Of a stretch of 64,000 nt of DNA, positions 21,181 through 56,632 are shown piece by piece. Source of the stretch: an uncultured Acidimicrobiales bacterium (GTDB lineage Bacteria; Actinomycetota; Acidimicrobiia; Acidimicrobiales; SHLQ01); NCBI GenBank assembly GCA_938015295.1, contig CALLQB010000028.1:1-64000 (forward strand), read 5' to 3'. The position numbers and the translations under genes are program-made. The notes beneath the pieces were generated by a model, which saw only the letters and a list, made by a program, of their open reading frames with translations, ran no database searches and was not told where the DNA came from. Numbering within the stretch: the first letter of the stretch is position 1; the number at the start of each line of letters is the position of its first letter.

Positions 21181-21708
21181 CTATTCGCTCAACTTCGCTG
21201 CGGTGATTTGGAACAGCTCCGCCAACGCAACCCGGTCGACCTTAGAGTCGTAGACGTCATCGCGGAGCGAATCGATGTCGGTCGACAAGTCAGACCGAGC
21301 GGCGGCAACGATCGACGAGATATTACCGCTAAGGCTTTCGACAGCGGCGTCGACCCGGTTGTCGGTGAGGTCGAGTTCGCCTTTCAACGCCTGCATCGAC
21401 TCGGCGTTCTTTTGCGCATCGGCAGTAACCCGGTCGCCCAGGTTGGCGAGTGCTTTCTCGCGTGTCTTGGTTTCGGAGGTGAGCTTCTTGTCGACCGCTT
21501 TGAACTCGTCGCGCATTTCTGTACGCAGATCGTCGATCACGCCGAGCAGCGCCTGCTCGAGTGTGTCGAGACGCTCCGCGGTGCGCCGGGCATGTTGCCC
21601 CAAAAGGAGATCCTGGATACGACCAAGGTCATCGTCGGCAAAAGCGACCATGCCGTTGCTCGTTGCGTTGTCTTCGGCGACGCCGGTGGTTGTTCCGTCT
21701 TCAGCCAT
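21181..21708 (-). CDS. Coiled-coil protein beside the Ras-like GTPase island
   Basis: A 175-residue protein not assignable to a family by eye. After an acidic Thr/Asn-rich N-terminus it has LGRIQDLLLGQHARRTAERL and then heptad-rich alpha helix to the end (TLEQALLGVIDDLRTEMRDE, then KKLTSETKTREKALANLGDR). No signal peptide or TM helix. Its opening resembles the short leader IQDLLLG/LRSLLL seen in the putative GTPase partner at 23760, suggesting a shared binding element. It is divergent from the histidine kinase at 22056 and probably belongs functionally to this island. Confidence 0.75.
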   Translation of the reverse strand: MAEDGTTTGVAEDNATSNGMVAFADDDLGRIQDLLLGQHARRTAERLDTLEQALLGVIDDLRTEMRDEFKAVDKKLTSETKTREKALANLGDRVTADAQKNAESMQALKGELDLTDNRVDAAVESLSGNISSIVAAARSDLSTDIDSLRDDVYDSKVDRVALAELFQITAAKLSE

Positions 21709-22055
21709 GCTGCATAACTCCGTTCGACGAACTGCTCTACTATCTCAATCACTAATCTCAATCACTGCTATCTCAACCAGTCCGACGAAAGCGCTCCCTT
21801 TTCGAACAGGTTCTGTGAGGCTAACCCAACGAGCCGCGTCGCCAGAGATCAGCGCTGCCAATATTGGGGTCTTTTGCCGCTGACCCTTTAGCCACTTGTG
21901 GCGATGGCGATACTGTTTGGGTAGAGCGATTTCGTTCTCGGGACAGTCCGACCATTCTGTTTCGAGTGCGTGATCCCTGTGGGTAGGTAGCAGCACGATA
22001 CCCGCCATTGTGCTGCTGCCGCCCACAACTTTCTTACCGGGTCCCAGGAGATCTC
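21709..22055. other. 347-bp divergent intergenic region with repeats
   Basis: No convincing gene. The region has lower GC than its neighbours. It holds two ATCTCAATCACT direct repeats (21742-21753, 21755-21766) plus a partial third at 21770, and a perfect 8-bp inverted repeat AGCAGCAC/GTGCTGCT (21989-21996 and 22010-22017). The stem-loop is 39 bases upstream of the kinase ATG; a GGAG ribosome site lies 6 bases before that ATG. Promoters for both divergent genes must lie here. A minus-strand reading frame of 87 codons (22008-21745) exists, but its third positions are only about 53% GC, so I do not call it. Confidence 0.6.
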
Positions 22056-23192
22056 ATGGCAGATCCTTCGATGATGCAAGACATCGTCGAACTGCTCCGA
22101 GGGGCAACCGGAGCGCACTTTGCACAGTTGGTGCTCGCTAGCGACCTGTCGGTCGCGGTGCGCGCTGGCGAGCCCACAAACTGGCTCGAGACTGGCGCCA
22201 CCGCGTCGGTGTTTCCCGAAGCGCACCTCAAGAACGATGTAGCACCCAACAGCACAACCGCCCCGTGGGTACAAAGCTATGCGACCATGCCAGTCACCGG
22301 AACTTCCGCCGAACCGGGTTACCTCGTACTAGCGAGCAGGGACGCGAACGGTGCGTCTGTCGACTGGTTCCGGCCTCTCGCGAGCGCAGCGGCGCTCATC
22401 GAAGATCGCTTGGACAGGTTGGCTGAACATCGCCGCATCGACCAGATGGCGCAGCTCCTTCGAAGTAACCAAGAGCGCCTACACGCAACCGAGGCGCAAC
22501 TGAGGGTCGCCAACGGTGAACTCGAGCAGTTTGCGTACATCGCAGCCCACGAACTCGTCGCCCCGCTTCGTGCCGTCGCGGTCTACGCCGAGGTGCTCGA
22601 AGAATTGACCAAGTCAGCAAACGACGACATCGCCGAAACGTCAAAAGCATGCGCCCGCGAGATCCGCGATGGCGTTGCGTTGATGAACCAACAGGTGAAA
22701 TACCTTCTGGAGCTGTCACAAGGCGCATCCGATGCGACCGACATCGAACCCATCGATCTCACCGACGTCGTACAACGGACCGTCGACACCCTTGCACCGG
22801 CGCTCGAAGAAGCTGCAGCAGTCGTCAACATCGGCGAACTCGCCGTAGTCCACGGGCGGCAGATTCCGCTGCAGAGCGTCTTCGCGAACCTTCTTTCCAA
22901 TGCGGTCCGCTATCGCCACCCCCATCGTCCACTGGTCCTCGATATCCGCTCGGAAGCGGTCGACGACCACGTGATCGTTACCGTCTCGGACTCGGGCGTC
23001 GGTGTTGCCGAAAGCGACCGGCAACGAATCTTCCAGCTCTTTGAGCGCGCATCCACCGACCCAGCAGGCTCCGGAATCGGGCTCGCTCTCAGCAGGCGAA
23101 TTATCGAGTCGTTCGGCGGCGAGATTGGCGTGCACCCAGCGAGTGACGCCGGGGCAAGCTTTTGGATTCGGCTCCCGCGGCTGTCCCGGTAG
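22056..23192 (+). CDS. Soluble sensor histidine kinase
   Basis: A 378-residue kinase without TM helices. The first ~100 residues look GAF-like (ELLRGATGAHFAQLVLASDL). Residues about 130-200 are a coiled dimerisation domain with the phospho-acceptor in FAYIAAHELVAPLRAVAVYA (HE rather than the usual HD). The ATPase domain follows, with N-box FANLLSNAVRYRHPHRP, G1 DSGVGV and G2 GSGIGLALSRRI. It resembles phytochrome-class kinases. Start ATG 22056 has GGAG six bases before it; the frame is open further upstream but that stretch lacks such a site. Neighbouring GTPase and NarL-type regulator suggest partners, but no cognate receiver is directly downstream. Confidence 0.88.
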   Translation: MADPSMMQDIVELLRGATGAHFAQLVLASDLSVAVRAGEPTNWLETGATASVFPEAHLKNDVAPNSTTAPWVQSYATMPVTGTSAEPGYLVLASRDANGASVDWFRPLASAAALIEDRLDRLAEHRRIDQMAQLLRSNQERLHATEAQLRVANGELEQFAYIAAHELVAPLRAVAVYAEVLEELTKSANDDIAETSKACAREIRDGVALMNQQVKYLLELSQGASDATDIEPIDLTDVVQRTVDTLAPALEEAAAVVNIGELAVVHGRQIPLQSVFANLLSNAVRYRHPHRPLVLDIRSEAVDDHVIVTVSDSGVGVAESDRQRIFQLFERASTDPAGSGIGLALSRRIIESFGGEIGVHPASDAGASFWIRLPRLSR

Positions 23193-23218
23193 CCAGAACA
23201 GCGCGACGAAATTCTGAC

Positions 23219-23737
23219 TTAGGGATTCGCTACGGCCCGCGCAAGGTGTGCGAACGCATCGGCGACGCCATCGCCGGTCTTTGCACTCGAGCGCAACCTC
23301 ATACCCACATCGAGCGCCTGGGCGGCAGGATCGACCAGCGCCCAGTCGATGTCAAGGTCGGCCTTGTTTGCCACCGCGAGTTGCACGGCCTTTGGCGATG
23401 CTTGGCGAACCTTCTGCCCAAGCGAGGCCGCCGTTTCGATCGTTTCAGGACGCGAGGCATCAAACACAAGAAGCGCAGCGGTTGCTCCACGAAGGTACGA
23501 CTCGGGGACCGACAGGCCCTCGGTTTCGCCGTGGATATCCCACAAGAGCATGGTGACGACCCCACCGGGAACCGCCACGGTCTTTCGGTCGACTTTCACA
23601 CCCAACGTTGAATGGTGTTCATCAGAAAACACGCTGTGCACGAAACGTCGAACGAGGCTGGTCTTGCCAACCGCTGGCGCCCCGAGCATGACTACCTTCG
23701 CCCGAAACAACGACCCTCCAGAACCATCGCTGCTCAT
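23219..23737 (-). CDS. Ras-like small GTPase
   Basis: A 172-residue GTPase with every G-box visible: G1 GAPAVGKTS near 18-26, G2 threonine in HHSTLGVKV, G3 WDIHG, G4 NKAD, G5 SSAKT. The residue after the G3 glycine is Glu, where Ras/Rab proteins have the catalytic Gln. I chose the ATG at 23737 (GAGGG upstream); an alternative ATG at 23788 adds a 17-residue leader. Bacterial Ras-like GTPases act as switches in polarity, motility and envelope processes. It is convergent with the histidine kinase and lies 22 bp after the stop of the membrane-anchored partner gene, in the same orientation. Confidence 0.85.
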   Translation of the reverse strand: MSSDGSGGSLFRAKVVMLGAPAVGKTSLVRRFVHSVFSDEHHSTLGVKVDRKTVAVPGGVVTMLLWDIHGETEGLSVPESYLRGATAALLVFDASRPETIETAASLGQKVRQASPKAVQLAVANKADLDIDWALVDPAAQALDVGMRLRSSAKTGDGVADAFAHLARAVANP

Positions 23738-23759
23738 ACTGCCCTCATCTCGTACATCC

Positions 23760-24611
23760 TCATAAAATGATGACCAACACAACGACAATGATCGCGATAA
23801 GCAGTAGAGCAGCCGCTACCAGCGGACCATACCTCTTCGCGACAGACGCCTTGGCGTTGTGGTACAGCTGCAGAAGTTCTGGTTCGGTCGGCGCAAAGGG
23901 GCCAACATCGCCGTTGAAGGCTTCGAGGTGTTCGGCGTACTCGACGTGGAGCTCTTCGAGATACGCGGTGGCCTGCGTGCGGTAGTTGTCGGTGGCGATG
24001 CCGTTGACCACCGAGGCAAGAACCGCGTCGGGGCCCCACTCGACCAGCACCGATGTGTCACCAACCCGTAGGTCTTGCAGGCCGTCGTGATCAGGCTTGT
24101 CGAAAGCATCCTGCACGAACATTCGAACGGCGTCGAGCATGCCCGATACGACATCGGCGTCGTCGAGTCGGGCTTTGTCGCTGGCGGCAGCGGCCAAAAG
24201 CACACCGGATTCGCGGTGGATCAGCATGACCTGATCGACCCGGAATGTTCGACCCGAAGTCGCGGAGTCGAGCGAGAACAGGCTCGCTATCGACTTGCGG
24301 ATCGCGGGGCCAATCACCGGGTACAACGCCTCAGCAAGCACGGTGCTGTCGCCGAACGCTGACTCGCGGACAGCGTGCTCGACGTCGGGCCGCAAAGCCG
24401 AACCGAGGGCGCCCGATGGTCGGCCGACTGCGTCGCCAGCAGCGACCGCATCGACCAATACACTGCCGACCGACTCTGCGAGCACCTCAGGCGGCGTTAG
24501 CAGCTCCTCAAGCTTTTCGACGCGAGCGCGCAACTCGACCAGCTCTTCGCGCTCGGAACGCAGCAGAACTGAGCGCACCTCTTCGAGTTGCTCGTCGTGA
24601 ATGTCAGTCAT
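23760..24611 (-). CDS. Membrane-anchored protein, putative partner of the Ras-like GTPase
   Basis: A 283-residue protein. Residues 1-40 are coiled-coil, 40-115 helical with AEALYPVIGPAIRKSIASLF near 96-115, and 125-235 a mixed fold with VDQVMLIHRESGVLLAAAAS, DADVVSGMLDAVRMFVQDAF and LVEWGPDAVLASVVNG. This series matches, from memory, the N-terminal region of a family of bacterial OmpA-domain proteins whose genes lie beside Ras-like GTPase genes. Here the OmpA domain is missing and the protein ends in a single TM helix (260-283) rich in Ile/Val, so it is a tail anchor with a cytoplasmic body. It probably binds the GTPase at 23219, an inference. Confidence 0.7.
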   Translation of the reverse strand: MTDIHDEQLEEVRSVLLRSEREELVELRARVEKLEELLTPPEVLAESVGSVLVDAVAAGDAVGRPSGALGSALRPDVEHAVRESAFGDSTVLAEALYPVIGPAIRKSIASLFSLDSATSGRTFRVDQVMLIHRESGVLLAAAASDKARLDDADVVSGMLDAVRMFVQDAFDKPDHDGLQDLRVGDTSVLVEWGPDAVLASVVNGIATDNYRTQATAYLEELHVEYAEHLEAFNGDVGPFAPTEPELLQLYHNAKASVAKRYGPLVAAALLLIAIIVVVLVIIL

Positions 24612-24677
24612 GTCACCTGCGATCGTAGACCGTTGACGGCACTGCAGGTTGCAATGGCCACAGTTCGTCGCCGAGCG

Positions 24678-25301
24678 CTAGCTCGGCGGAACGACAAGCC
24701 CGAGCCGGGTTGCGGTGGCGATCGCCTCAATTTGGCTGTTGACCTCGAGTTTTCGAAGTGCATGCTTGATACGCGAACGGATCGTGTGCAACGACAGATG
24801 CAGCATGTTGGCAATCTCGGCAGCGCCGTTTCCTTCCGCCAGCATCTGGAGTACCTCAAGCTCCCCGGGCGAGAGCCCCGGCACGTTGAGGTCTGAGGCG
24901 GCGGTGCTTTCAGCACACCTTGACGCGGTCGACACCTCGCCGGCCAGAATTTTTCGCATCCCGTCGACTAGTTGGTTGATCGATACATCCTTCGAAAAGA
25001 CCCAGGCGTCCTCAACCGCCGCCGCATCGGTCGACACCGATGGTGCAGCAAACCCCGTAAGAATCATCACCGGAGTCGTGATGCCATTGGTCCGCAGCGC
25101 TTTGGCGACATCGATGCCATTTTCGCCGGGAAGCCGGTAGTCGGAGACTACGAGATCGGGAGCCAAGGTTCGACAAAGGTCGATTCCCGACGTTGCGTCG
25201 GGAGCGCGGCCAGCAACCCGAAGATCATCGGTCGTCGACAAGGCAAGTCCGAACGCCTCGGCATAGGAAATCTGATCATCAATGATAACGATCGATTTCA
25301 T
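24678..25301 (-). CDS. NarL/LuxR-type response regulator
   Basis: A 207-residue two-domain regulator. The receiver (1-120) has IIDDQ acidic pocket, phosphorylatable Asp in VVSDYRLPGENG near residue 53, conserved Thr in ILTGF and Lys in FSKD. The LuxR-type HTH (140-200) has LSPGELEVLQMLAEG and HLSLHTIRSRIKHALRKL. The likely start is the ATG at 25301, preceded by AAGGGG; an ATG four codons earlier is in frame. No kinase is adjacent in the same orientation; the closest is at 22056, so cross-talk within this island is plausible. The 66-bp gap to the partner gene suggests an operon with it and the GTPase. Confidence 0.88.
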   Translation of the reverse strand: MKSIVIIDDQISYAEAFGLALSTTDDLRVAGRAPDATSGIDLCRTLAPDLVVSDYRLPGENGIDVAKALRTNGITTPVMILTGFAAPSVSTDAAAVEDAWVFSKDVSINQLVDGMRKILAGEVSTASRCAESTAASDLNVPGLSPGELEVLQMLAEGNGAAEIANMLHLSLHTIRSRIKHALRKLEVNSQIEAIATATRLGLVVPPS

Positions 25302-35568: not shown

Positions 35569-36459
35569 CTACTGAGCTGGCGCGCAGTTCGCGGTGCGAT
35601 CGGTCATCCAAAGAAACAACGGCGACCGGCTGACCCGCTGAGCAGGCTCGGCAAAAGCCAGCCCAGCCGGTTCCTCTGGACTGATCGCTACCGCAACCGT
35701 GAACTGCTCGTGACACAACCCCTCCGGCACTTCACCAGCGATCGAGACAATCCGGTTCGAAAGCGGCGCAACCGAAACCGAAACCGACTCCCAAGACACA
35801 TCACCGATGCGTGCATCGACAACATAGGTCGCCGGCAAAGAGGTCGAGTTCACCAGCTCTACTTGAACCGTCGACTCGCTGCCCCCCACGACATCGACCT
35901 CACCCGCAACCAGAGCCCATGTGCCGGCAAAGGCGTATGCGTGAAATTCGTCTGCTGGCTTGCGTTCAAAGGCACTAGCGCCCCCGAACGCCACGGCCAT
36001 AGCCAACGCGATTGTGCAAACTCCCAGCGCCCAGGGAGGTACGTCAACCGACACCTCATCTGCGACGCGTCGCAACCAGACCTTCAGACCCAGCGAACTG
36101 AACCAGCGAGAAGAAACCCCAGCGGTGACGAAACAAAAAAGAACAACCGACACGAGCACCGACCAGCGGGTCAAACGGTTACCAGCCACCATCACCGCAA
36201 GAGCAAGAATTGGATACACACACGAACTCAGCACCGCTGATAGCGCGAGGCGTCGGGCGCCCGAGAAGACCACGGATTCGCGAAACAGGACAACCAACAG
36301 CGCATTGCCAGGGACGACAAGGGCCAATGGCAGCACCAACAAACGCCAAGCCGTCGGCAGAACTAGGGAGCCGCCGACCAAGAACCCGGCACCCGCTAGG
36401 ACCGTAATAGGGTGACTCCAGATCGAAGACGCCGACGAGGGAAATACGTGCTGGCTCAT
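35569..36459 (-). CDS. Membrane protein with extracytoplasmic C-terminal domain (DUF1616-like)
   Basis: A 296-residue protein with about four TM helices in residues 15-110 (PITVLAGAGFLVGGSLVLP, LLVLPLALVVPGNALLVVLF), a further one near 142-160, then a soluble ectodomain (170-296) of beta type (VQVELVNSTSLPATYVVDAR, NRIVSIAGEVPEGLCHEQFT). The architecture recalls DUF1616 proteins in archaeal and bacterial surface-glycan loci. It is last of four genes linked by ATGA overlaps with the flippase-BcsB, sulfotransferase and GT-C-like genes. Function unknown. Confidence 0.78.
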   Translation of the reverse strand: MSQHVFPSSASSIWSHPITVLAGAGFLVGGSLVLPTAWRLLVLPLALVVPGNALLVVLFRESVVFSGARRLALSAVLSSCVYPILALAVMVAGNRLTRWSVLVSVVLFCFVTAGVSSRWFSSLGLKVWLRRVADEVSVDVPPWALGVCTIALAMAVAFGGASAFERKPADEFHAYAFAGTWALVAGEVDVVGGSESTVQVELVNSTSLPATYVVDARIGDVSWESVSVSVAPLSNRIVSIAGEVPEGLCHEQFTVAVAISPEEPAGLAFAEPAQRVSRSPLFLWMTDRTANCAPAQ

Positions 36460-38318
36460 GGGCGGGACCTGACAAACGCGTCTGGGTCAAGCCTGTACAC
36501 CACGATGTGATCACTTTCGTACAGTCGCAAGGCGTAGGGCAGCGCATCCCACTTTGTCAGCGTCGCCATCGACAGTGGCTCGGTACGCTCAAACGCCAAC
36601 GGCTCCTGCTGGTCGAGGTAGAACTTGGTCCGGGGCACAAACTGGGATTGACGCTTGTCAATCACCACAAAGCGAAGACTTTCGTTTCGAATCTGTTCGA
36701 GAAGATCAACCGGAATCTCATCATCGCTCAGGAGAAACTCCCAGATCGGATATTTGGTGCTTGGCACGCCAAGAACGGCAAAGGCACGCGACGAAAACGC
36801 GACCTGATTGCTTCGGTCGGCAATGAGCCCCTGATCAGCACCCTGGGTGGTCCGGAACCACTCGGCAGCGGCGTTGACTTCGTTGGTCACCGAGCGGGTG
36901 TCAGATCCGTACACGTACGGGCCAGGGAACCGGTAAAGCTCGTTGGTCGCTAGCGAGATATTGCCGACCAGCAGCGCACTGGTAAACGCCACAGCTACGA
37001 CCTTCGTCGTATTGCGGACCAGTGCACGGTCGGATCGCAGCCAGGCACCGATGCCCAACGAAAGAATGACCGCGACGCCAAGGTTGCTAAATGACCAGCT
37101 TCGGCGCGCCCCTTCAGCGCCAGTCTCCGACAGCATCATCGGGAAGACGGCAAAATACATCCCGCCGGTGAGCAGCAACCCCAACATCGTCGGGCTCCGC
37201 GTCCGGCGCACCAGCAACACCATCGTGGAGACCCCGAACGCACCAGCGAGAAGTACGGGCGAGGCGAAGGCCAGCAATTTTTCGTACATCGGAATTGTGC
37301 TACCGGCAAATAGCTGCCTCGGCTGCGCAGCGTCCTGTTCGTCGAGAACATCCGGACGATCCCAGAAGGAGAGCAATCCAGCGGTCTCTTCGAAGCCTCC
37401 TTCAATGTAGGGCTGTAGGTAGGCACGAGTGTTCGGGGCTTGATACACGAACCACCCGACGGTGAACAGAATAAAGCAGCAGGCAAAGAGCACCGTTTCG
37501 GTCAAATCGACCCGGTCTCGGAGCAGTAGCCTCACCATGAATCCGGCGATCACGAACAGACCGAGGATCAAGAGCGTTACATAGCTCGAAAGATGGTGAG
37601 ATCCTGTCAAGGTGATCGCGACGACAAGCCCGACGAGAAGCCACGCTGTCCGCTCCCACGAGACCGACGATGCCTGCTGAAAATGCACTACCGCGGCGAT
37701 GACCCAGATGAACAAGACAATGGCGAATGACTCGTACGCAAACTGCGCGCTGAAGTACCAAAACCCCGGTCCAACTGCATAGAACAACGCTGCAATGCCA
37801 CCGGCATGATGCGACGAGAGTGAAACCCCGATCGAGTAGACGCCAAACAACGCCAACGCATGAAACATGATCAGCAAAGCTGCAGCAACTTCGATCGTCT
37901 CAAGGCCCGTGAGGTGCCGCACAGACGCCGCAAAAGCGTGCATCATTGGATAGTCGCTCACCACCACAACCTGGTTGTTCTGTGCGAACAGTTGACCGTC
38001 TGCAAACAGCCTTTCAACCTGGGTCCAATGCGCATACTCATCGAAGAACGCTGGCTGCCCGGGATAGGCAAGAAGTTTCGGAAACATGCTGAACGTGCCG
38101 ATGGCAGCGACGATCAGACAACGGTCGGTAGTTGACGTCCGGTGACTGAGAAGCTTGATGCTGGCCGGCAGCAAGAAGAGAAACATCGCTAGCCAGAACA
38201 GGTGAAAATGCGTGTGGGATCCTGCCGCGCTGCGGCTAGCGAGCGCCTCGGAGTAGGTCAGCAGAAAGCTCCCTGCGAACAGTCCGGCCCATACAAAGAG
38301 CATCGACCGGTCGTTCAT
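36456..38318 (-). CDS. Polytopic GT-C-like membrane protein
   Basis: A 620-residue protein with about 12 TM helices in the first 480 residues and a soluble C-terminal region (485-620). The first extracytoplasmic loop has GQPAFFDEYAHWTQVERLF (near residues 86-105), an Asp-Glu pair placed like the catalytic acidic residues of GT-C glycosyltransferases that use polyprenyl-phosphate sugars. The ATG at 38318 overlaps the sulfotransferase stop (ATGA), so I prefer it to the ATG six codons upstream. It probably adds a sugar to the exported polysaccharide or a surface glycoconjugate; the donor is unknown. Confidence 0.75.
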   Translation of the reverse strand: MNDRSMLFVWAGLFAGSFLLTYSEALASRSAAGSHTHFHLFWLAMFLFLLPASIKLLSHRTSTTDRCLIVAAIGTFSMFPKLLAYPGQPAFFDEYAHWTQVERLFADGQLFAQNNQVVVVSDYPMMHAFAASVRHLTGLETIEVAAALLIMFHALALFGVYSIGVSLSSHHAGGIAALFYAVGPGFWYFSAQFAYESFAIVLFIWVIAAVVHFQQASSVSWERTAWLLVGLVVAITLTGSHHLSSYVTLLILGLFVIAGFMVRLLLRDRVDLTETVLFACCFILFTVGWFVYQAPNTRAYLQPYIEGGFEETAGLLSFWDRPDVLDEQDAAQPRQLFAGSTIPMYEKLLAFASPVLLAGAFGVSTMVLLVRRTRSPTMLGLLLTGGMYFAVFPMMLSETGAEGARRSWSFSNLGVAVILSLGIGAWLRSDRALVRNTTKVVAVAFTSALLVGNISLATNELYRFPGPYVYGSDTRSVTNEVNAAAEWFRTTQGADQGLIADRSNQVAFSSRAFAVLGVPSTKYPIWEFLLSDDEIPVDLLEQIRNESLRFVVIDKRQSQFVPRTKFYLDQQEPLAFERTEPLSMATLTKWDALPYALRLYESDHIVVYRLDPDAFVRSRP

Positions 38319-39175
38319 TTTTGCAAGCTCGGCCAATGCGCCGTTGGTTCGTCGAGCAGTGACAACATCGCGTGTGCTTCCTCAGCGAGGCGATGCCACC
38401 TCGGGCCGAGCATCTCTCGCGTGAGCTCGGGTTTTTCGACCGGACGCGAAACGAGTCGGTGTAGCTGTTTGAGCGGTGGCCCGAGCGGCGAGTCAACCAA
38501 TTCATTGCAGGCCCGGCGGATCGGCTCATGGCCGAGAAGCCGGTCGACAAATGCTGGGTTTTGACGACGAAGGCCCGCCTCGTTCGCATGCACCGCTTCA
38601 ACATCAAAATCAGGCAAGTCCAACCACCGGACAATGTTTGATGCAACCTGCGCAGGGTTTGCCGAGAATCGCTCAAAGGATGCGACGAATACGCTTTGCG
38701 CGCCAAACGTGGAGACGAACGAGTCGTAGTGAGTTCGATACCACGTCGGCTCAATCAGGCGATCAATCGCTCTGTCGATGTCGGCGGGCAGATCGTTGCG
38801 GGGCTCGGACCGAAGCTGCAGATATCCCGAACGCATTCGTTCGATCGGATCCCGCACGAGATACACGAATCTGACATCGCCCGGCGCCAACCTCGAAATC
38901 GACGGAACAACCCAGGGGTACCGGACTGTCTGGCTGTACGACGTGGAGCCATCGATCCGGTAGCGAGCGTCCTTCGAGCTAGGGCACGCTGACGGCGAAT
39001 ACCTAGAGAGATACTCGTCGCGGGCGGCCACACTTGGATCCGCCCCCAAAAGCGAGAAAAAACCTGGCTCTTTGAGGTCGGGTCCCCAAATAGAGCGATG
39101 GCGTACCAACATTTCATAGAGCGAGGTGGTGCCGGCCTTGTGGGCGCCAATCAGAAACAAGTTCGGGCAACTCAT
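38315..39175 (-). CDS. PAPS-dependent sulfotransferase
   Basis: A 286-residue cytoplasmic sulfotransferase. The 5'-phosphosulfate loop is LFLIGAHKAGTTSLYEML (residues 6-23), the 3'-phosphate motif VYLVRDPIERMRSGY lies near 106-120, and a late helix RRACNELVDSPLGPPLKQL follows. The start ATG at 39175 overlaps the stop of the flippase-BcsB gene. Context suggests it sulfates a sugar of the surface polysaccharide made by this locus; a lipid or small molecule acceptor cannot be excluded. Sulfated polysaccharides suit a marine or saline lifestyle. Confidence 0.88.
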   Translation of the reverse strand: MSCPNLFLIGAHKAGTTSLYEMLVRHRSIWGPDLKEPGFFSLLGADPSVAARDEYLSRYSPSACPSSKDARYRIDGSTSYSQTVRYPWVVPSISRLAPGDVRFVYLVRDPIERMRSGYLQLRSEPRNDLPADIDRAIDRLIEPTWYRTHYDSFVSTFGAQSVFVASFERFSANPAQVASNIVRWLDLPDFDVEAVHANEAGLRRQNPAFVDRLLGHEPIRRACNELVDSPLGPPLKQLHRLVSRPVEKPELTREMLGPRWHRLAEEAHAMLSLLDEPTAHWPSLQK

Positions 39176-42100
39176 GACGCTGGTCCCCGCAGGCGCTCTC
39201 TTCGTCGGAGTTCTTGTCGGGCGGCACGGGTTTTCCGGCGACTCCGCATCCATAGGACGATGACGACCGAAATCATTCCTGCGACGGCGGTGATTTGTAA
39301 CGGCAGAAGGCGAGCAAAAATCGATTCGCCACCGACAGCGATGACCCTCTGGACTTGTTTGCCTCGCAGGCTCAGGCTGACCGGGGGCGACCCGTCAGAC
39401 AGGAGGTACGTGTCACCGAACAGGCGTTGAAAGCTCAGCTGGCGGGTCGAGAACGAGTCAAGAAGCTCGGTCACATGCGCGTACCCCGAACGTGGCGGGC
39501 CGCCCCCGTTCGACCATGTTAGAAGCAGCCGATCGGCGCCCGCCGATTCGTACGCTTCGAGCACTGCGTGCGGAAGGTCGACTTCGAAATCGAGCAGCTT
39601 CAGTCGCTCTTCATCGATGACCGTCATCGAATCTGTCGACAGCATTGGTCCAGCCTCGAGTACCGAGGCAGTCGTCGATGAGATCACCACAGCTGATGTC
39701 GGAGCGGACATCGCAGTGGCAACGTCGACAAACTCGGGTGAAAGGTCAACGGGGCTCAACCGCTGAAGAGCTGCGAGAAGCCGAACCGACATGGCCACAT
39801 GGTTGAGGTCATAGGTAGCGAGCCCAACGGCGAAGCCACCGAGAAGGGTTTGGGGAAATCGCGCAAATCCCGGCTCGAGCGACTGACCCCCACCGACCTC
39901 CATGAAGGACAAGTCGGGGTTGATCTGCACGTTCATCGGGATCGCCCCAAGCGTGTCGCAACCTCCCTCTGGGCTGTAATCGACGCTGAGTTGATAGTCG
40001 AAAGATCGACTGTGCATTTCCTCTGGTATCTCGAAGTCGAACTTGAAGGCGCCCTGATCACCCAGCGTCCAGCCTTGGATCATCTGGCCGCCGAGGTTGA
40101 AACTCATCGAGCCCTGAGCGCCTCCATCGATTGGTGTGTACACACCTTCGACGTGGATTCGCATGGAGCTCACGGGGCCGCCCAAGGCAGATTGGCTGAT
40201 CGAAAACGGAAGATCCATACGGCCGACGCCGGTTAGTCGCATCCGCCCAAGCTCGAGTGCGCGAAACGAGTGTCGCGACTTTGACTCGGTCGACAGAAGG
40301 GGGCCATTTCCGACATCAGAACCACCGAGATCGGATGTTCTTTCGCCAGAAGTCACATCATCGTCGAAGGCCAACACGTCAGGTACGGCGTCAGCCTCTG
40401 GTTCAGGGTCCAGATCAAACACTTCGATCGAGACAGACGTTCCGACTACCAGCGGCGAGTACGAGCTCATCAACGCCTCCGCGCTCCGGATTAGCTCAGC
40501 TCCGTCACCGCCTAGGGCCAGAACCACCCCACCCGAGCGGGTCGTGACGAGATGCACTCCAGCGGGGAGGTCTTCCGATATCGCCACAGCTCGGCCAGAG
40601 GCCTCAAGATCGACGTCTCGGACCTCGGCGTCATTCCACAACGCGGAAATGTCCAGAGTCGGCGCACCGCCAATCGCTGAGCGGGAGGCAGCGATTGCCA
40701 TCCTCGCAGCCGCTTCAGCCTCGGCTGGCGAAGTCTCCCGGGGAAGCGAGATTTCAACCCGCTCAAGGAGAGGGGGAAAGAAATTTGCGACCGTTGTCGG
40801 CACAGCCGGATCGCCACGAAGTAAGAGCACGCCGTGGGAAAGGTCAACATAGGCACCCAAGAGGTTAGTTGTGCATACCGGATCCTCGCTGCGAAGCCGG
40901 TTTCGAAAGGTGACCCGAGCCCGGTCTGACTCGACGTCGACTTCGGAGAGATCAAGCTCGACCTCGGTTACCGCGTCTCGATCCGCGCGATGCCCAAACT
41001 CGATCGCCAATGGTGACGACCCGGGCCCAAAGAACTCGACGTAACCCGTGTCAACATCGGGCGACAGCGTCAAACTGGCGCGCATCGAGACAAGTTCGAA
41101 TCCAGGTGGGACCGGAATCGACACAACGCTTTCGTTGACCTCGCCCGCCAAACGAAGCGAACGGCCGATCTCGGTCGCATCGAACGGAACTAACCACAAG
41201 CCATCGTCCACACGAACAACCGCTGGGTTCCAGAGCGGATCAAGCCGAAACTGGTCGATGGCATCAATGCTGTCAGCGGTCTTGGCTTCATCAAACCCAA
41301 CCCGTTGATACACAAGGTCCCCAGCGTCGGCCGATCCGTCTGTCGCCGTCAACGGCACCTCGTCGTTCTCCTGGTCTGTCTCGCTAGCCGAGTCGTCGGA
41401 CTGCGCGACTGCCAAACCGACATCAGCGATTACCAGCATCGGTAAAATCGTCAGGCAGATCACAAACACACCTGCGACTCTGCCCGCGGTGGCCGTTGTT
41501 CCGCGACGACTCCACAGTTCAGCTAGAGCGATATAGATGCAGCCAGTCGACTGTGCGAGTACCCAAGCCCAACCTGCCCCAACAATGCCGAGCGTGGGAG
41601 TCATGAGATACGCAAACCCAATGGCGACCGCGGCCATCATGATGTTAACCAGAGCAACATGTCCGGTCCGGCCAAGCACACGCCAACGACTAACCCACAC
41701 GTTGGTGACAGCGTCAGGCACCGCCGACAGCACAAGAACCAGCAGCAGCGGGTAGCCGCTCGTGCGGTAGCCGGGCCCGAACAAACCGAGGAGCGTCTCG
41801 CCGAACAACACAGAAAACATCATCGCGGCGATCAAGATCTGAGCGATCACACGACTTGCTCGCCGCAGTTGCCTCGCGAGCGATGCCGGTTCTGCGGCAC
41901 CTTCGGCAAACAAGGCATTTGCAATCGCGTTTGACGCCATAAAGAACATCGAACCGATCATCCAGGTGATGTAAAAAAACGCCGAAGCATCCGCACCAAC
42001 GCGAGCGATAACCACCACGGGCAGAACAAGCATGGGCAGTTGTCCACCAAGGTTGGCGACATGGTGCCACGCGCCCCGACGTAACAGCCCGCTTCGCACA

Positions 42101-42783
42101 TCGGCCCGATCAATCCCCTCAGCATCGGCATGTGCCGGCCACGGAACTACACGTCGGACAAGTACCAACGAGCAGCCGAGACACACTACCCAGCCGGTGA
42201 AAATGGCCGACGTCCCGTCTTGGACAAATGCGGCGACCAGAGGAAGAGACAAAAGTTTTGTCAGGGTAAAGGAGGTACCGCGGGCGAGGAAACCGACCGA
42301 CCGGCGGTCGCCGATGTACACCGAATCGATCAAGTTGGCCCAAACCGAAACCACCAAACCACCAGCCAACGCTAGGCGCATCGGCAGGGTGAGAACGCTC
42401 CGCAACTCCGGCACTAGCCAAGGAACCAATACCGCGAGAGTCGCGCCGCCAGCGATCGCCGATAAGGTGCCGCACTGCCACGCCGCCGCAAGCGTCGCCG
42501 ATCGACGTCGCTGCTCAGACGCCGCGCTGAGCCGGTCGATGAGCGCGGTTCCAAGGCCAAGATTGGCGACGAGCGCGCCCAGACTCATCGCGGCGATCAA
42601 CGATGCTGCACGTCCGACCTCTTCGGGCCGAAAGAGGCGAGCCGCCAACATCCAGTACAGGTAACCAACCGCAGAGTTGCAGAGCGTGGTCGCCATAACC
42701 AAGCTGCTGTTTCGTAACAGGGAATCAGTCGCCAGACTCGCAAGAGACCGGCGCGAGAGCCTCGTGAGTCGGTGGGTAGTCAT
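39172..42783 (-). CDS. Wzx/MATE-like polysaccharide flippase fused to a BcsB-like domain
   Basis: A 1203-residue fusion. Residues 20-430 form a flippase with about 12 TM helices (VMATTLCNSAVGYLYWMLAA; SLIAAMSLGALVANLGLGTA). A hydrophobic segment at 434-461 (VFVICLTILPMLVIADVGLA) leads into a 700-residue extracytoplasmic part built like BcsB of cellulose synthase: CBD-like domain 545-660 with Cys 637, flavodoxin-like domain 665-775 (FFPPLLERVEISLP; GGVVLALGGDGAELIRSAEA), second CBD 855-960 (MSFNLGGQMIQGWTLGD; LSVDYSPEGGCDTLG), second flavodoxin-like region 985-1110, then a TM helix (1161-1180) and basic tail. It likely couples membrane flipping to extracytoplasmic guidance of a glycan; I know of no described precedent. 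First gene of the coupled four-gene operon. Confidence 0.82.
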   Translation of the reverse strand: MTTHRLTRLSRRSLASLATDSLLRNSSLVMATTLCNSAVGYLYWMLAARLFRPEEVGRAASLIAAMSLGALVANLGLGTALIDRLSAASEQRRRSATLAAAWQCGTLSAIAGGATLAVLVPWLVPELRSVLTLPMRLALAGGLVVSVWANLIDSVYIGDRRSVGFLARGTSFTLTKLLSLPLVAAFVQDGTSAIFTGWVVCLGCSLVLVRRVVPWPAHADAEGIDRADVRSGLLRRGAWHHVANLGGQLPMLVLPVVVIARVGADASAFFYITWMIGSMFFMASNAIANALFAEGAAEPASLARQLRRASRVIAQILIAAMMFSVLFGETLLGLFGPGYRTSGYPLLLVLVLSAVPDAVTNVWVSRWRVLGRTGHVALVNIMMAAVAIGFAYLMTPTLGIVGAGWAWVLAQSTGCIYIALAELWSRRGTTATAGRVAGVFVICLTILPMLVIADVGLAVAQSDDSASETDQENDEVPLTATDGSADAGDLVYQRVGFDEAKTADSIDAIDQFRLDPLWNPAVVRVDDGLWLVPFDATEIGRSLRLAGEVNESVVSIPVPPGFELVSMRASLTLSPDVDTGYVEFFGPGSSPLAIEFGHRADRDAVTEVELDLSEVDVESDRARVTFRNRLRSEDPVCTTNLLGAYVDLSHGVLLLRGDPAVPTTVANFFPPLLERVEISLPRETSPAEAEAAARMAIAASRSAIGGAPTLDISALWNDAEVRDVDLEASGRAVAISEDLPAGVHLVTTRSGGVVLALGGDGAELIRSAEALMSSYSPLVVGTSVSIEVFDLDPEPEADAVPDVLAFDDDVTSGERTSDLGGSDVGNGPLLSTESKSRHSFRALELGRMRLTGVGRMDLPFSISQSALGGPVSSMRIHVEGVYTPIDGGAQGSMSFNLGGQMIQGWTLGDQGAFKFDFEIPEEMHSRSFDYQLSVDYSPEGGCDTLGAIPMNVQINPDLSFMEVGGGQSLEPGFARFPQTLLGGFAVGLATYDLNHVAMSVRLLAALQRLSPVDLSPEFVDVATAMSAPTSAVVISSTTASVLEAGPMLSTDSMTVIDEERLKLLDFEVDLPHAVLEAYESAGADRLLLTWSNGGGPPRSGYAHVTELLDSFSTRQLSFQRLFGDTYLLSDGSPPVSLSLRGKQVQRVIAVGGESIFARLLPLQITAVAGMISVVIVLWMRSRRKTRAARQELRRRERLRGPAS

Positions 42784-55987: not shown

Positions 55988-56632
55988 GTGACCAAACCTA
56001 TTCAAGTGTTGGTGGTCGATGACCATCCGCTCGTCGTCGAAGGGCTCTGCGCCCTCCTCACCCCAGTAGATACCGTCGAGGTCGCTGGCGCTGCGCAGAC
56101 TACGTCGCAAGCCAAAGAACTTCTCCATCAAGGTGACTTCGACGTCGTCATCGTCGACCTCCGCATCGGGCAGGAATCCGGCTCAGAACTCGTCGAGGAC
56201 ATCACGAAACACGGCGGCCCGCCTGTCCTTGTCTTGTCCGCAGCCGAGGATCCGGCCTCTATCACCGAAGCCATCAACGCCGGCGCTCGCGGTTACCTTG
56301 GCAAAAGAACTTCACTCGGACTCATCGTTCGTGCAATAAGTGACGTGCACGCAGGCCGAAGTTTCGTCGATCCCGCTCTTGCCTCATCGTTAATTTCGCA
56401 TGAAGCAGCAAGGGCCGAAAAACGACAGACAAGCCACGACCTTTCTGAGCGCGATACACAGATCGCGAAACTTGTTGCAAAGGGCCAAAGTAACCGCGCT
56501 ATCGCCTCGGAGATGTTCCTCTCGGAACGCACCGTGAAGAATTACGTCTCGCAGTTGCTACGCGCTTTACAACTCGACAATCGCACAATGTTGGCACTTT
56601 GGGCGCTCGATAACCTCGAGACTGACGCCTAA
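55988..56632 (+). CDS. NarL/LuxR-type response regulator
   Basis: A 214-residue regulator with receiver pocket VVDDHPLVVEG, phosphorylation site Asp in VIVDLRIGQESG (near residue 56), Ser in VLSAAEDP, Lys in LGKRTS, and a LuxR HTH with LSERDTQIAKLVAKGQSNRA and FLSERTVKNYVSQLLRAL. It starts with GTG. It diverges from the sensorless kinase at 55070, the natural partner. Targets are unknown; the surface-polysaccharide genes are nearby. Confidence 0.9.
   Translation: MTKPIQVLVVDDHPLVVEGLCALLTPVDTVEVAGAAQTTSQAKELLHQGDFDVVIVDLRIGQESGSELVEDITKHGGPPVLVLSAAEDPASITEAINAGARGYLGKRTSLGLIVRAISDVHAGRSFVDPALASSLISHEAARAEKRQTSHDLSERDTQIAKLVAKGQSNRAIASEMFLSERTVKNYVSQLLRALQLDNRTMLALWALDNLETDA

Follow-up and report, generated by a model that had tools for sequence, protein, structure and literature searches.

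A Rup-type small GTPase cassette of Acidimicrobiales with a tail-anchored partner predicted to contain a longin domain

Results

A five-gene GTPase module is conserved in Acidimicrobiales

We analysed a 64,000-nucleotide stretch of DNA (hereafter the window) from an uncultured Acidimicrobiales bacterium (assembly GCA_938015295.1, contig CALLQB010000028.1, positions 1-64,000, forward strand), in which positions 21181-25301 hold a gene module built around a Ras-like small GTPase; all coordinates below are window positions. An original prediction made from the sequence had placed here a GTPase, a tail-anchored protein, a coiled-coil protein, a soluble histidine kinase and a NarL-type regulator, in an actinobacterium. 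Indeed, each of the five open reading frames proved to lie where it had been called and to carry the expected domains by Pfam, apart from a GAF-like part of the kinase, and the host is an actinobacterium whose closest relatives are Acidimicrobiales. On the minus strand, the genes for the regulator, the tail-anchored partner and the GTPase lie head to tail, separated by gaps of 66 bp and then 22 bp. The kinase gene on the plus strand is convergent toward this GTPase operon, and the coiled-coil gene, again on the minus strand, is divergent from the kinase gene.

Gene neighbourhoods were compared first in 11 related genomes and then at 20 Acidimicrobiales loci, the window among them. The coiled-coil, partner and GTPase genes co-occurred at all 20 loci, and the flanking genes varied. 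A kinase orthologue was present at 19 (the remaining locus, L056, ends before it) and the NarL-type regulator at 16, with L048 at a contig edge and no regulator nearby in L040, L060 and L097. This conservation of the gene set is well above chance, so that the conservation in relatives on which the original prediction had been staked was found, and the five genes form a real, conserved module. The partner and GTPase genes adjoin at every locus with enough sequence, including all 20 Acidimicrobiales loci, and they do so even where the coiled-coil gene has moved away. Two layouts occur in Acidimicrobiales: that of the window, regulator-partner-GTPase / kinase / coiled-coil, and a second, (regulator)-coiled-coil-partner-GTPase / kinase, which has the order of other phyla and is probably ancestral.

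The distribution of the module is patchy. When both the GTPase and the partner were searched in 148 genomes of the order, strong matches to the two fell in the identical seven genomes; the family is clear in 12 of 248 genomes of the order and in 10 of the 19 genomes of the window's family, and in a sample of 396 genomes of the phylum the window's own genome was the sole carrier. Other genomes of the order also gave weak GTPase matches (E >1e-6; open reading frames of 439-603 amino acids), which were discarded as probably Der/EngA-type, and one genome, G090, gave a partial partner match (E 6e-5).

The GTPase partner is predicted to be a longin protein

The partner (283 amino acids; 23760..24611, minus strand) ends in a C-terminal membrane helix (residues 262-283; 23763..23828, minus strand; hydropathy 3.67) with no residue beyond it, and is thus tail-anchored, as had been proposed. 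An AlphaFold2 model based on a 75-sequence alignment (mean predicted local distance difference test, pLDDT, 84.8) consists of N-terminal helices, elements in the order b1-b2-a1-b3-b4-b5-a2-a3 at residues 124-255, and the membrane helix, as assigned by DSSP. An earlier model from 12 sequences had the identical element order at lower confidence (pLDDT 63) and was set aside as too weak to serve as a basis in its own right. When residues 121-258 (23838..24251, minus strand) were compared with known structures by VIA-align, the top list was filled by longins, with Z from 13.8 to 9.7. The best match was VAMP7 (Z 13.8, root-mean-square deviation 2.4, 119 residues), and further matches included Sec22b (13.1), a TRAPP subunit (12.6), Fuzzy (12.4), Ykt6 (12.1), a Lokiarchaeal longin (11.9), Mon1-Ccz1 (11.3) and SRalpha (11.0); Foldseek agrees on the superfamily. 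We predict from these models that the partner's domain of unknown function is a canonical longin. Of all results of the analysis, this prediction for the partner family is of most interest, and it appears to be new; no report of bacterial longins was found in the literature searched, which covers few subscription journals. Small GTPases usually have longin or roadblock domains as their platforms, and published accounts derive longins from prokaryotic roadblocks in the eukaryotic or Asgard line (PMC3521125, PMC10933270).

A search of named genomes with the partner alignment gave 214 relatives, of which 80 were retained. The nearest were Acidimicrobiales, and beyond that order they came from Acidobacteriota, Pseudomonadota, Thermodesulfobacteriota, Myxococcota, Gemmatimonadota, Planctomycetota, Cyanobacteriota, Chloroflexota, Bacteroidota, Spirochaetales and Latescibacterota. 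The partners of other phyla mostly extend past the membrane helix; 49 of 64 have an OmpA-like end, and Pfam OmpA matched in all three OmpA-ended partners that were scanned. Aliterella atlantica and Thiolinea disciformis are examples of organisms with the OmpA form. The resemblance noted earlier, of an OmpA-less partner to the N-terminal part of OmpA proteins linked to GTPases, reflects true homology. The Acidimicrobiales partners form one clade (support 100/100) and all terminate 0-8 residues after the membrane helix, with no periplasmic part. A Dehalococcoidia (Chloroflexota) partner (L096:6869-7912) likewise stops right after the helix and branches among longer forms, so that on the tree the two short forms stand apart. 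Acidimicrobiales and Dehalococcoidia are both generally regarded as single-membrane. Elsewhere in the family, the periplasmic part of zetaproteobacterial partners (L062, L065-L067, L075, L081, L087, L109, L118) is long and gave no match to our OmpA profile, and in Parabeggiatoa-type genomes (L082:2619-8941, L124:1936-8944) two consecutive partner genes, some carrying large insertions, precede a single GTPase gene.

The GTPase lacks the catalytic glutamine

The GTPase is a single-domain, Ras/Rab-like protein of the Rup type (172 amino acids; 23219..23737, minus strand; Pfam Ras, E=1e-25) with motifs G1-G5, including GAPAVGKTS, WDIHGE, NKAD and SSAKTG, and its nearest solved sequence is Rab23 (E 4e-36). 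It is the one convincing Ras-like small GTPase in the genome, where two other Ras-profile matches are weak and lie in open reading frames of 487 and 962 amino acids. A search for Robl_LC7 (roadblock) across the whole genome, which is 95% complete, gave no match. In the window GTPase the Gln61 position is occupied by Glu and the Gly12 position by Pro. Glu replaces Gln61 in 17 of the 20 Acidimicrobiales GTPases and in 45 of the 59 others; outside the order, the Gly12 position is mostly Phe. Because the catalytic glutamine is absent, slow intrinsic hydrolysis is expected, with a long-lived GTP state unless a partner in the module completes the site. Two partner residues, R105 (invariant in 75 sequences) and Q127 (in at least 90%), are speculative candidates for this role.

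Coiled-coil protein, hairpin, kinase and regulator

The coiled-coil protein (175 amino acids; 21181..21708, minus strand) carries the family N-terminal motif DDDLGRIQDLLLG and is homologous to counterparts in other phyla, mostly at E 1e-10 to 1e-23; by hidden Markov model its gene adjoins the partner gene in most loci of those phyla. The coiled-coil protein and the partner have a short N-terminal pattern in common, L-x-x-[IV]-R-x-[IL]-L-F-G, then R-[LIV]-x-x-L-E. When partners were scored with a profile of this motif from the coiled-coil proteins, two reached E 7e-9 and 5e-8 and several lay near 2e-4, but most partners did not score above shuffles, and the pattern hints that the two proteins might dock to a shared surface or to each other.

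Between the coiled-coil and kinase genes lies a hairpin (21978..22027; -35 kcal/mol, z -7.7) with a stem of about 20 bp and a 7-nucleotide loop, ACCCGCC. Two further genomes of the genus have it at the equivalent site, with two base pairs changed on both sides; the shuffle control, with three sequences, was uninformative. The hairpin is single copy in this genome, the remaining intergenic region is not conserved, and an Rfam search gave no match. Words shared between the intergenic regions were not clearly above shuffles, the top ones lying within the hairpin. This element could be a leader of the kinase mRNA or a palindromic operator.

The histidine kinase (378 amino acids; 22056..23192, plus strand) matched Pfam HATPase_c (1e-22) and HisKA (2e-5), with H165 and the ATP-binding motifs conserved, and showed no convincing transmembrane segment and no HAMP match. 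The kinase is accordingly soluble, as foreseen, but a GAF-like N-terminus was not established, since GAF_3 matched one of seven orthologues at E=0.02 and did not match the window protein. Q139 is invariant in the seven closest orthologues but not in all 12. The output proteins encoded beside Rup GTPases in other phyla carry at the N-terminus one or two conserved domains that Pfam does not name (consensus 1: WGG, FLEGLLP, QQKxNEL; consensus 2: FPFLENFL with SGPW), joined to cyclase, HD-GYP-like or kinase modules, for example in L111:9211-10236, L062:7217-8308 and L083:9189-10730. Profiles of these two domains gave no match to the kinase N-terminus.

The NarL-type response regulator (24678..25301, or 25313, minus strand; Response_reg 1e-15, GerE 3e-12) retains its phosphoacceptor and catalytic residues (D54, T82, K104) and is an addition of the Acidimicrobiales clade rather than a universal member of the system. 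Away from the module, a second NarL-type response regulator is encoded at 55988-56632 on the plus strand. A run of four consecutive minus-strand genes at 35569-42696 possibly serves surface polysaccharide synthesis; its products include a 1174-amino-acid protein and gave a sulfotransferase match as well as weak matches to polysaccharide synthesis and to DUF1616.

Discussion

The Group 1 Rup set, as defined from genomes in 2014, comprises a Rup GTPase that has lost the G3 glutamine, together with a coiled-coil protein, a protein that combines a conserved domain with a membrane helix and often also OmpA, and an output protein of the kinase or cyclic-di-GMP kind; at that time no Rup GTPase had been characterised (PMC4316618). 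We found no later characterisation of one in the literature searched. In our comparison, the order coiled-coil, partner, GTPase recurs at about 49 of 62 non-Acidimicrobiales loci, and at the loci that were read the output gene encodes a kinase, a class III cyclase or, by sequence reading, an HD-GYP-like protein. This order matches the published set, and these loci are of the same system type. By gene set and sequence features, in a comparison assembled apart from the 2014 reference GTPases, the Acidimicrobiales cassette belongs to this known but uncharacterised kind. Thus the gene combination that the original prediction had singled out is real and conserved, but it is not a new kind of island.

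On balance, we think it probable that the cassette is an Acidimicrobiales variant of Group 1 Rup in which a longin partner serves as the membrane platform of the GTPase and the kinase and regulator provide the output. In the chain that we infer, from binding through signal direction to phosphotransfer, the tail-anchored longin protein would keep the soluble GTPase on the cytoplasmic side of the membrane as a binding platform, and it would most likely govern exchange or hydrolysis of the nucleotide, the part that longins play for Rab and SRbeta GTPases. The coiled-coil protein would act as an adaptor, and the GTP-bound complex would tune the soluble histidine kinase, which would in turn phosphorylate the NarL-type regulator and so change transcription. 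In species with an outer membrane, the OmpA domain of the partner would tie the complex to peptidoglycan, and single-membrane lineages would do without it.

The signal might instead run as in conservons, with the kinase and partner upstream, the GTPase as output and the NarL-type regulator as a side branch or autoregulator. We consider this main rival unlikely, though less so than those that follow. In actinobacterial conservons a small GTPase is indeed coupled with a kinase and no regulator takes part (PMC4316618, PMC13343842), three Acidimicrobiales loci have no regulator close by, and the fourth gene in other phyla may be a kinase; however, those phyla often have as fourth protein an enzyme that produces an output of its own (a cyclase or HD-GYP-like protein), suggesting a position downstream of the GTPase, and the regulator gene lies within the GTPase operon at 16 of 20 loci. 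SNARE and adaptor longins do not all bind GTPases (PMC10933270), and the longin-like domain could accordingly be a structural or dimerisation module, with the coiled-coil protein or the kinase as the true GTPase partner. This seems improbable to us in view of the partner and GTPase genes, which adjoin wherever a locus is long enough to show both, often with a 4 bp overlap, even when the coiled-coil gene is elsewhere. Least probable is that an ordinary two-component system, encoded beside the GTPase operon by chance, accounts for the kinase and regulator. Such pairs are common, the kinase gene is on the opposite strand and the regulator is missing from three loci, but a kinase at 19 of 20 loci and a regulator at 16, amid other neighbours that vary, speak against chance.

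Several observations do weigh against our preferred reading of a longin platform with a kinase-regulator output. The N-terminal Gln published as invariant in the output protein is not shared by every kinase orthologue, and three Acidimicrobiales loci have the kinase but no adjacent regulator. Foldseek E-values were modest and some roadblock chains ranked high in that search; roadblock chains were not in the VIA-align top 50, and this absence is not taken as evidence. The partner gave no sequence match in Pfam, NCBIfam or PDB, and the longin is thus purely a prediction. Longins diverge strongly in sequence.

The predicted longin fold would give the unnamed partner domain a concrete role, that of a GTPase platform, and bears on the origin of the longin-GTPase pairing in eukaryotic membrane traffic. 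We judge it an evenly balanced question whether canonical longins are regular membrane partners of Rab-like (Rup) GTPases across some ten bacterial phyla; if so, the pairing of longins with small GTPases would be no Asgard or eukaryotic invention, and Acidimicrobiales would have a pared-down cassette suited to a single membrane and connected with a two-component system. Being small and without a periplasmic part, the cassette is a convenient minimal version for reconstitution.

Comparison with known systems

Like the conservons CvnA-D (MglA Group 2), the cassette encodes a small GTPase together with a histidine kinase in actinobacteria. Unlike them, it has neither a roadblock protein nor a CvnC-type gene, its kinase is soluble, its GTPase has the Ras-type G3 Asp and is not of the MglA type, and a response regulator is present. 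Conservon membership was rejected because the genome has no roadblock and the kinase is soluble without HAMP. The predicted longin partner and the Rab-like GTPase recall the eukaryotic and Asgard longin platforms (TRAPP, Mon1-Ccz1, Fuzzy-Inturned, SRalpha), but the system described here is bacterial, tail-anchored or OmpA-linked, and joined to bacterial signalling enzymes, and its partner has no detected sequence similarity to known longins. With Group 1 Rup the cassette shares a GTPase without the G3 glutamine, a cytoplasmic coiled-coil protein, a conserved domain with a membrane helix, a kinase as signalling protein and the lack of MglB, and the missing OmpA is compatible with this group because its definition says 'often'. 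It differs from that set in having no periplasmic or OmpA part, in the NarL-type regulator within the operon, in a kinase gene that is convergent rather than downstream in the operon, and in its Acidimicrobiales host, there being no actinobacteria among the Rup taxa named in 2014. The OmpA-less, regulator-linked Acidimicrobiales form is, in fact, a distinct and new variant of Group 1 Rup.

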